Part shown: positions 26,551 through 51,532 of the stretch, in pieces
Numbering within the stretch: position 1 is the stretch's first letter
How the letters are laid out: each line of letters opens with the position of its first letter
Source of the DNA: Propionispira arboris
Lineage (GTDB): Bacteria > Bacillota > Negativicutes > Selenomonadales > Selenomonadaceae
Length of the DNA stretch: 64,000 nt
Direction: 5' to 3'
Assembly: GCF_900109225.1 (NCBI RefSeq)
Contig: NZ_FNZK01000011.1
Coordinates: 1 to 64,000 of the forward strand
Notes under the pieces: model-generated
Told to the model about the DNA's origin: nothing
Databases searched by the model: none
The model's input: the letters and a program-made list of their open reading frames with translations, nothing else
Translations under genes and position numbers: made by a program

Positions 26551-26798
26551 ATAGCAGTGATGAGAGGGTAAAAAGTATTTTTTAATTCCTTGCAGAGAGC
26601 CGATGGTTGCTGTAAATCGGTAGGATTTGAATACTTGACTTCGCCCCGGAGCTTTTGTGTCGATTGTTTTTACAGGAGGCACAAACGTTTTTCAGCGTTA
26701 ATGGAAGTCTATTAGAGACATTGAGTATAATGTAGGGTGGTACCGCGGAATATCCGCCCCTGCTGGCATGACGTAAAACGTGCCGGTAGGGGCTTTTT
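26551..26798 (+). promoter_or_regulatory. T-box riboswitch leader of the ilv-leu operon
   Basis: A conserved T-box core AGGGTGGTACCGCG is at 26734-26747. It is followed by a terminator (GCCCCTGCTGGCA to TGCCGGTAGGGGC, 26756-26793, then TTTTT) that competes with the antiterminator. Upstream is a stem I with AGAGAGCCGATGGTTGCTG (26595-26613), and AGTA (26574-26577) opposite GAA (26629-26631) in the specifier region. Uncharged tRNA binding allows read-through into ilvN. The specifier reads ...GAATACTTGA. CTT (Leu, 26634-26636, followed by a purine) would suit the genes. TAC directly after GAA is the other reading. Confidence 0.92.
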
Positions 26799-48160: not shown

Positions 48161-48219
48161 TATATCACAATCAAAATTTGGGCGGAGCCTCACTGTTGGT
48201 CCAGTGAGGTTTTTTTTCC
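48161..48219 (+). repeat. Repeat R1: terminator-like element
   Basis: TATATCACAATCA (48161-48173) is followed by TTGGGCGGAGCC and a perfect hairpin CCTCACTG/CAGTGAGG with eight T. It shares the ATATCACA box, the GGGCGGAGCC block and the CTGTTG loop with R2-R4. The 13-bp box is repeated in inverted orientation at 48549-48561, beyond the hicB gene. The element encodes the abnormal C-terminus of that hicB. Confidence 0.7.
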
Positions 48220-48515
48220 GCGTAATTATCCATTTGGGAACGGGCATTAGACATATCTACATCGATAAGATAAAGTGTTTCGTTTTTTTCGAGGGGGATT
48301 TTACAAAGTGGAGTAGGTGTAGGAATTTCTTCGCCATCGTGTTCCATACCCCATAAATGCAAAGCAAGTCCATCTTTTGCCAAATGAATAGCCTCATCAA
48401 GAGTATCACCAACAGCAACACAGCCAGGTAAATCATGAAAATGAATAACGAAATTTGTCTCTTCTTTTTCGATAGATGCAGGAAATACATAACTGTCATT
48501 ATATTTTTTATACAT
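48171..48515 (-). CDS. hicB: Truncated orphan HicB-like antitoxin
   Basis: 114 residues. The HicB N-terminal RNase-H-like domain is complete (YVFPASIEKE, FVIHFHDLPGCVAVGDTLDE, VDMSNARSQMDN). The DNA-binding C-terminal domain is absent: after NYAEKK it reads PHWTNSEAPPKF, encoded by repeat R1. No hicA lies upstream. It is either a remnant or an antitoxin-only gene. Start context is TTTTTTATATG with AGAGG ten bases upstream. Confidence 0.8.
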   Translation of the reverse strand: MYKKYNDSYVFPASIEKEETNFVIHFHDLPGCVAVGDTLDEAIHLAKDGLALHLWGMEHDGEEIPTPTPLCKIPLEKNETLYLIDVDMSNARSQMDNYAEKKPHWTNSEAPPKF

Positions 48516-48835: not shown

Positions 48836-48856
48836 CCGCCTTTGAGCGGTTTTTTC
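48836..48856 (+). terminator. Short hairpin with T-run
   Basis: ACCGC/GCGGT around six bases followed by TTTTTT, plus orientation, at the 3' edge of the doc gene. The upstream gene it once served is not evident. Confidence 0.5.
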
Positions 48857-49310
48857 ATTTCTCGATAATTGTGTCAGCTATATTACCATCAGATAAAAAT
48901 TTATTAATATCAATGGAGGTAGAGCGTTCTTCTAACCATAGGGCAAGTTCTTCACTGCTCATTTTTCCCGAAGCAACATTGATAGCTATGTTTTCAAGTT
49001 CTTTTTGAGTATAATTAATTTCAAAATCATTAACCAGTAAATAAACAAGCATACTGTGTACGGCGGTTCTTTTATTGCCATCACGAAAACCATGATTTTT
49101 GGCTAAGCCGAAACATAAACGCGCGGCTTTATCAAAGATACTAGGATATAAATCTTTCCCATCATATGTTGCAAAAGGGTTATTTATAGCTGATTCAAGT
49201 AAGTTATGGTCAAGAATTCCTTTATCCATAGTAAAAGTTCTTTCCATTTCTTCATGGAAAGAAAGGACATCTCTTAAAATAATTTGTATAGTTTGTTTGA
49301 TGTCACTCAT
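48855..49310 (-). CDS. doc: Doc/Fic-family toxin
   Basis: 151 residues with the Fic core HGFRDGNKRTA near residue 72 (catalytic His and phosphate-binding loop) and the Doc-type N-terminus SFHEEMERTF. Doc proteins phosphorylate elongation factor Tu; other Fic proteins transfer AMP. Here FRDGNKR is intermediate, so the exact chemistry is uncertain. The start overlaps the stop of the antitoxin gene by ATGA. The gene is complete and carries no inactivating change that I can see. Confidence 0.88.
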   Translation of the reverse strand: MSDIKQTIQIILRDVLSFHEEMERTFTMDKGILDHNLLESAINNPFATYDGKDLYPSIFDKAARLCFGLAKNHGFRDGNKRTAVHSMLVYLLVNDFEINYTQKELENIAINVASGKMSSEELALWLEERSTSIDINKFLSDGNIADTIIEK

Positions 49311-49862: not shown

Positions 49863-50288
49863 TTATACTGAAAAATGTTTTGATGAGCTGTCTTCTACGC
49901 CTAAATATTGCTTGAGTGAAGTCTGCAATAGGTGGGAATAGTTTACTTTTTCCTTACGGGCGAGAATATCCAGCCAGCGGGGAATGGTCACAGTCTTATT
50001 CATGGACTTGTTGAGCATTTTTTCACGGAAAGGTGGCATCCAGGCATCAATCATAACAAGTACTTGACCCGGATTTTGCTTAATTTTGATAGGGCTTGAG
50101 GAAGCTGGGATTTCTTCGTCATCTTCTTCCATGCCGTACAGTTGGAGTTGGAGTGCCTCTTTTGCGTTTTTAAAGGCTTCTTCCATTGTGGCAGCAGATG
50201 GTAGGCAACCGGGGAGATCAGGAAAAAAGATAAAAATACCATCATCAGCGATTTCAAATAGAGCAGGGAACGTATAAGTGTCTTTCAT
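49863..50288 (-). CDS. hicB: HicB antitoxin (full length)
   Basis: About 141 residues. The N-terminal domain is KDTYTFPALFEIADDGI and IFFPDLPGCLPSA. The C-terminal ribbon-helix-helix part is KTVTIPRWLDILARKEKVNY and SHLLQTSLKQYLGV. HicB neutralises HicA and represses the operon. TTGGAGGTTGATAACA favours ATG 50288. The cognate hicA just upstream is broken, so this is an antitoxin without an active toxin. Confidence 0.92.
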   Translation of the reverse strand: MKDTYTFPALFEIADDGIFIFFPDLPGCLPSAATMEEAFKNAKEALQLQLYGMEEDDEEIPASSSPIKIKQNPGQVLVMIDAWMPPFREKMLNKSMNKTVTIPRWLDILARKEKVNYSHLLQTSLKQYLGVEDSSSKHFSV

Positions 50289-50330
50289 TGTTATCAACCT
50301 CCAATAATAGATAAGGAGAAAGGCGAAGCG

Positions 50331-50474: not shown

Positions 50475-50693
50475 GTCATCCTTCTTATAGTTAACTATAA
50501 CACATATTATTACACATACAAAGGCAAATAAACAAATGTTTTTACACGTGTTGATGAAGCAGGAAAACAATGGTAAGGTGTCTTTTTTTTGTCAATAAAA
50601 AATGATATTATAAGAAAAAGAATCCGCTTTCTGAATTTCAGTATAGTAGATTTATGGTACATTATACGCAGGTAATATCTCCTGAAAACCACA

Positions 50694-50731
50694 AAAAAAC
50701 ATGATTTTTACAATAAAAAAATCATGTTTCA
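50694..50731. terminator. AT-rich perfect hairpin, possibly bidirectional
   Basis: AAACATGATTTTT pairs with AAAAAATCATGTTT around a 6-nt loop, with A/T runs on both sides. Confidence 0.6.
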
Positions 50732-50788
50732 TCTTATTTTTACTTGCAATCGTTACGAAGTGTAATATAATTAGAAATAGGGTGGAAA

Positions 50789-50886
50789 TTAAAAAAGTCG
50801 CCGTGTCCCAAGAGTGTTAGCGCACTCTTTAGGCACGAGCAGGTGAACCAGCACCTACACGTAACAGCTAGCTGTCTACGACGACA
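50789..50886 (-). ncRNA. Predicted ~100-nt structured small RNA, class unknown
   Basis: The promoter TTGTCA (complement of 50914-50919), 17 bp, TATAAT (complement of 50891-50896) points to a start near 50885. The predicted RNA begins GTCGTCG, pairing with CGGCGAC (complement of 50797-50803), directly followed by six U. Inside are CGTGT/ACACG, hairpins AGGTG-CTGGTT-CACCT and AAGAGTG-CGCTAA-CACTCTT, and the palindrome ACAGCTAGCTGT. The result is a closed multi-branch structure. There is no start codon or ribosome site. The flanking 50475-51125 gap holds no other gene. It matches no RNA class that I can recall (not 4.5S, 6S, tmRNA or RNase P). Confidence 0.7.
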
Positions 50887-51125
50887 ATTTATTATACCGT
50901 TATTTTCCTTTGGTGACAAGGGAGATGGTTTGTTCGGTATAATACGATTGAAGTTTTGACAGGGCTTAGCGTCTGCATGCAATTAAGATATAGCAAAGCG
51001 CATGTGTAGGTTGAATAAACCCGCGCATGCGCTTTTTTGATTTCCCCTGAAACAAACTGTAGGGTGGGTTCCTTTATTGGATTACAATAGAGAAACCCCT
51101 TGCAGAATGAGGATGGGGGATATAA

Positions 51126-51422
51126 ATGATGATGAAAAATGTATTTGATTCATTGGCTGCCACGAAGGAAGATGAAATTTTGGTTGGCTTAGATTTAAGA
51201 AAATATTCTAGTGAATATTTTCATGCCAGCGAAAAAGTCCTTGCATATCAGGACAAAATAAAAAATGCATTGCCCTTGGATTTGCAGGAAATTTTGGAAC
51301 AACTTGATGATGAATATAATTGTATGATGATGAGCGGAATGGATGTATATTATCGGCAGGGTTTTTCCGATGCAGTCCGGCTGATTATGGAGACAATGAC
51401 TTGGTCACCAACGCGGAGTTAG
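51126..51422 (+). CDS. DUF6809-like small protein, function unknown
   Basis: 98 residues with three Met codons at the start. GAGGATGGGGGATATAA precedes the first. It is helical; the C-terminal part MDVYYRQGFSDAVRLIMETM resembles the YxxGFxDGxxLxxE pattern of small proteins seen in mobile elements of Firmicutes. No catalytic motif is visible. It is monocistronic with a terminator at 51434-51470. Confidence 0.6.
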   Translation: MMMKNVFDSLAATKEDEILVGLDLRKYSSEYFHASEKVLAYQDKIKNALPLDLQEILEQLDDEYNCMMMSGMDVYYRQGFSDAVRLIMETMTWSPTRS

Positions 51423-51433
51423 AAGGAACGGTG

Positions 51434-51470
51434 CACCCTGGTGATTTGAAAAAAAATCGCCGGGGTGTTT
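51434..51470 (+). terminator. Terminator after the small protein gene
   Basis: CACCCTGGTGATTT pairs with AAATCGCCGGGGTG (GU pairs), then TTTCT. Confidence 0.75.
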
Positions 51471-51532
51471 CTGTGCGCCAGGAATGGTCGTTTACTCGTC
51501 GGTGCAGTCCAATGGAGAGAATGTAGAGTGTT

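Follow-up and report, generated by a model that had tools for sequence, protein, structure and literature searches.

A candidate chromosomal antisense-RNA attenuator cassette with hypervariable loops and exchangeable small-protein payloads in Propionispira arboris

Antisense attenuators are so far known mainly from plasmid copy control. In the RNAI/RNAII pair of ColE1, the antisense RNA is about 100 nt long and has three stem-loops, with short loops that set specificity. The plasmids pT181 and pIP501 have antisense-RNA transcription attenuators, RNAI (87 nt) and RNAIII, respectively (PMC5703833), and YUNR loops accelerate sense-antisense binding in pIP501 as well as in hok/Sok (PMC6562991). 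In the symE/SymR locus of Escherichia coli, the 5' part of the mRNA is opposed by a structured antisense RNA, SymR, which is transcribed from a promoter within the symE ORF and affects translation and the stability of the mRNA (PMC1891008).

Here we describe a locus in the first 64,000 nucleotides of contig NZ_FNZK01000011.1 of Propionispira arboris (the whole of this stretch is called the window below), for which a literature search that covered few subscription papers found no published description. As far as sequence comparison can tell, it is built like an antisense-RNA transcription attenuator to which a translational lock has been added, and we consider it probable that the locus is a chromosomal attenuator cassette resembling those of pT181 and pIP501, with swappable payloads and copy-specific kissing loops.

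The minus-strand small RNA and its copies

An earlier note on this DNA had claimed a new structured small RNA on the minus strand, with a near-consensus promoter that starts at the 5' strand of a closing helix, and this outline was borne out. The promoter, TTGTCA-17-TATAAT at 50919-50891, agrees with 11 of 12 consensus positions; transcription is predicted to start at about 50885, within the 5' strand of the closing helix GUCGUCGU/ACGGCGAC, and the six U that the note had placed at the end of the 3' strand follow that strand directly (50796-50791). The closing helix encloses three stem-loops, and the 12-bp palindrome of the note is ACAGCTAGCTGT at 50864-50875. The putative RNA of about 95 nt (50791-50885) has a predicted fold of -39.8 kcal/mol, compared to -28.0 +/- 3.25 for shuffled sequences (z -3.6; 0 of 200 shuffles as low). 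A single promoter match is not significant in a stretch this rich in AT, where 4 promoter-like matches were found and 5.0 expected, and so the case for the promoter rests on comparison between copies. Our collected set comprises 139 copies from Negativicutes and Desulfosporosinus; the -10 element TATAAT is kept in every one of them, and TTGT-17/18-TATAAT, with a variable spacer, in 127.

No covariance model of Rfam 15 matched at its gathering score between 50500 and 51150; matches at relaxed thresholds were at chance level, none reaching any gathering score. The note's view that the region has no coding potential needs a qualification, as an 80-aa minus-strand ORF spans it in the window, but the frame is not conserved across copies, in which the loops vary from 4 to 9 nt and the A-tract from 3 to 7 nt, and we rejected a coding role. 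What homologues conserve is base pairing, and this comparison, together with the Rfam result, supports the claim of a new structured RNA without an Rfam family. Two outcomes that the note had named as refuting its claim, a hit to an existing Rfam family and a reading frame conserved in place of base pairing, were looked for and not observed. Over the 957 base-pair cells of 29 copies, the minus-strand reading gives 98.0% standard pairs and the plus-strand reading 86.9%; most of the difference stems from three nearly invariant G-U pairs, which on the plus strand are C-A mismatches. Changes on both sides of a pair were seen in 22 cells versus 8.3 in shuffles; such statistics are inflated by the non-independence of related copies. 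Stem C supplies the covariation support, since the remaining helices vary too little to inform. A reading on the plus strand only was also tried and set aside: RNAalifold on plus-strand alignments gave little covariation, and the G-U count favours the minus strand.

The element is repeated within genomes. Searched against its own genome, the 321-bp stretch 50740-51060 gives five matches, the window copy and four others at 93-94% identity to it; the copies at the ends of contigs C15 and C33 share the same core and are probably one locus, which gives four loci rather than five. The sister genome, from a congener, also has four. An rRNA leader was suspected from the two contig-end copies and rejected, as no rRNA was found nearby. 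A covariance model built from 29 copies, which gives clear matches of about 90-145 bits, detected the element in 31 genomes out of 250 from the class, and in a set of 398 genomes drawn from the phylum it detected only two carriers besides the P. arboris genome itself; weak extra matches (30-40 bits) lay mostly on the opposite strand of the same places. Carriers in the Negativicutes have from 1 to more than 20 copies, and Desulfosporosinus-like genomes have 3 to 8. Two copies about 4 kb apart on one 5396-base contig (C8 of genome G152; L183 and L185) may be a tandem array. In the genus, homology among most copies is limited to a unit of about 800 bp (50671-51480), at the 5' border of which lies an AT-rich hairpin, AACATGATTTTT...AAAAAATCATGTT (50700-50729), kept in the Propionispira copies and in several copies of genome G040. 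The core motif is also present on two IMG/VR contigs classified as viral: on one (L192) it lies near an ORF resembling N-acetylmuramoyl-L-alanine amidase and two resembling site-specific recombinases (all named by eye), a context that suggests a prophage border, and on the other (L191) it has no recognisable neighbour.

Up to 24 scattered copies from one genome, homology mostly confined to the repeated unit, and variable loops reminiscent of guide loops might indicate a non-autonomous mobile element or a guide RNA, similar to a MITE, an omega-RNA or a bridge RNA, with the RNA serving movement. We give this very little credence, as no transposase, nuclease or recombinase family recurs beside the copies among the neighbours listed, loci are found at the same places in two species, and searches of plasmid and phage collections yielded no match to the cassette.

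The opposed leader and its switch elements

Beyond what the earlier note contained, we found genome-wide repetition, loop hypervariability, and a leader and ORF on the plus strand that oppose the small RNA. The leader promoter, TTGCAA-16-TATAAT (50744-50771), is conserved among copies: at least 9 of 12 consensus positions agree in 114 of the 137 with enough upstream sequence, and the mean is 9.57, compared to 7.63 for shuffled sequences. The predicted leader of about 260 nt (50778-51038), likewise conserved, has a fold z-score of -6.1 (263 nt) and contains the exact full complement of the small RNA, followed by a variable stretch and an intrinsic terminator. This terminator (50998-51038), a predicted stem followed by U6, is present in copies with full downstream sequence, where the layout is GCGCAUGUGUAGG...CCUCGCAUGCGC-U(n) and then AAUUUCCCC; a small ORF starts about 85 nt past the terminator and AAUUUCCCC.

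The small RNA is thus placed in cis-antisense to the leader. Of the roles that the note had listed, antisense or antitoxin RNA fits best, and its suggestion of a guide-like RNA found no support. With its structure, its own promoter and its U-tract, the small RNA could conceivably target other genes in trans, the antisense arrangement being secondary. In the copies we read, however, the leader that it opposes carries matching switch elements, and we saw no conserved single-stranded stretch outside the stems that could serve as a seed, observations that make a trans-acting role highly improbable. A riboswitch-like or protein-binding attenuator, with the minus promoter incidental, would account for the strong fold of the plus leader, its terminator, the hairpin at the ribosome site described below, and the variety of downstream genes. 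This also seems improbable to us, if somewhat less so, as the minus promoter is kept at least as well as the plus promoter, the G-U pattern favours the minus-strand fold, and the hypervariable YUNR loops would be unexpected in a ligand pocket.

Two competing segments of the leader are nearly invariant among copies. Strand 1 of the predicted antiterminator, ACCUACACGU (50853-50862), is exactly a segment under the cover of the antisense RNA and includes CCTACAC in 137 of 139 copies; strand 2, AUGUGUAGGU (51002-51011), lies within the 5' arm of the terminator, where TGTGTAGG is found in 126 of 135, and its GTGTAGG is complementary to CCTACAC. The terminator leaves the UGU before AGG unpaired and does not by itself explain why this UGU is invariant. 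In leaders stopped before the 3' arm of the terminator, the antiterminator helix has a median predicted probability of 0.90 (80 copies; 1.00 in the window), with low values in about a fifth of copies, and it is so nearly invariant that it has no covariation support. Complete leaders at equilibrium favour the terminator (0.98) with and without the antisense RNA, and any attenuation must therefore be kinetic. Attenuation in pT181 and pIP501 is held to be kinetic as well.

Two further pairings involve the end of the terminator. The 5' end of the leader, GGUGGAAAUU-A(n)-G (50780-50797), is complementary to the terminator U-tract plus AAUUUCCCC (51032-51047) and would form a helix, P1, with it; the number of A covaries with the number of U in the terminator (Spearman 0.72, n=77; equal in 61 of 77 copies), and some copies have paired substitutions, such as AAUUGAAAG with CUUUCAAUU. 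The 3' strand of P1 includes an anti-Shine-Dalgarno segment, AUUUCCCC (51040-51047), conserved after the terminator, so that UUUCCCC is shared, pairing either with the P1 5' strand or with the Shine-Dalgarno sequence of the ORF, GGGGG at 51115-51119. The latter pairing, which would sequester the ribosome site in a hairpin, is predicted at 0.86 in the window, and the two segments change together between copies (UUUCCUCC with GGAGGA, UUCCUCCC with GGGAGGGA). Such a hairpin is predicted ahead of most payload types, and in a minority of copies the Shine-Dalgarno sequence of the first ORF was not found paired with the anti-Shine-Dalgarno segment. When whole transcripts of 60 copies were folded freely, P1 had a mean probability of 0.30 and Shine-Dalgarno closure one of 0.70; with the antisense-covered region masked, the means were 0.05 and 0.87, an effect of modest size in the folding model, in the direction that fits a switch.

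From these elements we propose the following mechanism. The leader would be synthesized from the plus promoter, and the RNA of about 95 nt, complementary to the 5' part of the leader, from the minus promoter inside it. In the absence of antisense RNA, nascent ACCUACACGU would pair with AUGUGUAGGU once this is transcribed, blocking the terminator and allowing transcription of the payload ORF, and the 5' end of the leader could then pair with the U-tract and UUUCCCC to form P1, freeing the ribosome site. With antisense RNA present, first contact would be made by U-turn kissing at two variable loops and would spread over ACCUACAC; the terminator would then form, presumably the main effect, and RNA that was read through would keep its ribosome site closed.

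Nowhere else in the nearly invariant core does the sequence vary as much as in the two apical loops, those of stems B and C. Loop C (50817-50822; TTAGCG on the plus strand) has entropies of 0.97-1.64 bits between an invariant GTG and CAC, and loop B (50846-50851; AACCAG on the plus strand) 1.29-1.94 bits between near-invariant stems, with 102 different loops in 132 copies. Together they make 130 combinations in these 132 copies. In two syntenic orthologous pairs, the loops differ at 10 of 24 positions and the remaining sequence at 4 of 250 (p 3e-9). A YUNR motif occurs in plus-strand loop C in 61 of 132 copies (20.3 +/- 4.1 in shuffles), and 22 of 59 loop C types are also present as their own reverse complement. 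Since loop sequences differ from copy to copy, an antisense RNA would be expected to act chiefly on the leader of its own locus, and binding would be copy-specific. Both loops were shared by none of 544 within-genome pairs, which is no significant excess of avoidance given an expectation of about 0.2, and loop pairs differ no more within a genome than between genomes. The loop sequences hint at selection for insulation between copies of one genome, which is plausible rather than proven.

Payloads and genomic neighbourhood

The ORF behind the window copy (51126-51422, plus strand, 98 aa) presumably serves as the payload of the switch. It is DUF6809-like, scoring 26.7 bits against PF20648, just below the gathering score of 27 that would assign it to the family, and it is not of the SymE family. 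A DUF6809-like ORF lies behind all four loci of this genome and all four of the congener, and the payload of a further locus, L068, matches DUF6809 (PF20648) at 66.5 bits. Relatives of SymE (43.4 bits; cutoff 29) are the payload in 21 of 139 copies. Other payloads include several DUF6809-like subfamilies, a family beginning MYKTYRTTKDTI, a 55-aa family in Desulfosporosinus, a family of about 60 aa in genomes G152 and G169, and one of about 75 aa in G104, as well as a receiver-domain protein (response regulator, PF00072) and an ACT-domain protein. Most payloads are 55-140 aa long, and in several genomes the RNAs in front of two or more payload types have mean identities of mostly 75-93%. Counted by hand from coordinates, 22 of 27 SymE matches in 22 RNA-bearing genomes are directly preceded by a cassette, at most about 700 nt away, with one weak 41-bit match among the 22 RNAs, and the small RNA is always antisense. 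At L013, L047, L060 and other loci, a short conserved frame, MKMGGYKLVSVQGKKK..., starts at the Shine-Dalgarno hairpin and extends slightly past the start of the MYKTYRTTKDTI ORF, an arrangement that looks as if the two were translationally coupled.

The occurrence of SymE raises the question of a strict type I toxin-antitoxin system, in which every payload would be a toxin and the antisense RNA an antitoxin acting through a block of translation or decay by RNase III, and not through attenuation. The cis antisense arrangement of such systems is found here by sequence and conservation, the ribosome site is hidden, as is usual for type I toxins, and the mostly small payloads and the HicB and Fic genes in the neighbourhood also agree. 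The receiver-domain and ACT-domain payloads are not toxin-like, however, the window payload is without known function, and this explanation leaves the terminator and antiterminator unexplained. We regard it as rather unlikely, though it has more in its favour than the other alternatives, and continue to prefer an antisense-RNA attenuator with swappable payloads.

The toxin-antitoxin genes among which the earlier note had placed the RNA are indeed nearby, but they lie outside the cassette. Two minus-strand ORFs (48171-48515 and 49863-50297) are HicB-like antitoxins (PF15919; 53.0 and 49.8 bits), and an ORF at 48855-49310 is of the Fic/Doc family (PF02661; 54.5 bits); the 54-aa ORF directly upstream of the latter could be its antitoxin. 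Elsewhere in the window is a T-box leader (26551-26764; RF00230, 116 bits).

A broader proposal is that the copies form a natural family of mutually insulated chromosomal antisense attenuators, in which one conserved two-RNA switch serves many unrelated small proteins, address loops diversify rapidly, including by loop inversion, and up to two dozen copies are separately controlled; we would put the chances of this at about even. If it is true, the 139 collected members of this chromosomal family, with their natural address loops, would be ready-made orthogonal RNA switches, a kind of device that has had to be engineered in synthetic biology (PMC3753616). They would also offer a handle on about ten small-protein families under a common control device, the majority uncharacterised, and on SymE beyond the enterobacteria. 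The cassette would make address-loop diversification among paralogues testable.

Comparison with known antisense systems

Like ColE1 RNAI, the cassette RNA, at about 95 nt, has three stem-loops, but no replication origin or primer was seen, and the cassette has elements for termination and translation. With symE/SymR it shares a structured RNA that is antisense to the 5' portion of an mRNA and, in 21 of 139 copies, a SymE-like protein. It differs in that its antisense promoter lies about 200 nt upstream of the ORF, with a terminator between them, and in that the window copy is without SymE. The type I systems of Bacillus and other Gram-positive bacteria, such as bsrG/SR4 and fst, resemble the cassette in their cis antisense RNA, YUNR loop contacts (PMC6562991) and hidden ribosome site; their toxins are typically small hydrophobic peptides, whereas the payloads here are from several unrelated families, most of which are not of this kind.

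The closest resemblance is to pT181 and pIP501. As in these plasmids, the putative antisense promoter lies within a long leader and the terminator just before the ORF. In pT181 and pIP501 the terminator is induced when the antisense RNA binds (PMC5703833), as we propose for the cassette, and the enrichment of YUNR in the cassette loops recalls their U-turn type of loop contact (PMC6562991). Unlike the plasmid systems, the cassette is chromosomal, with many paralogues per genome and hypervariable loops; it adds the Shine-Dalgarno hairpin and the P1 helix, its payloads are not Rep proteins or other replication initiators, and it has no match in the plasmid collection. Judged from its sequence, the cassette would work like the copy control of pT181 and pIP501 while standing apart from those replicons.
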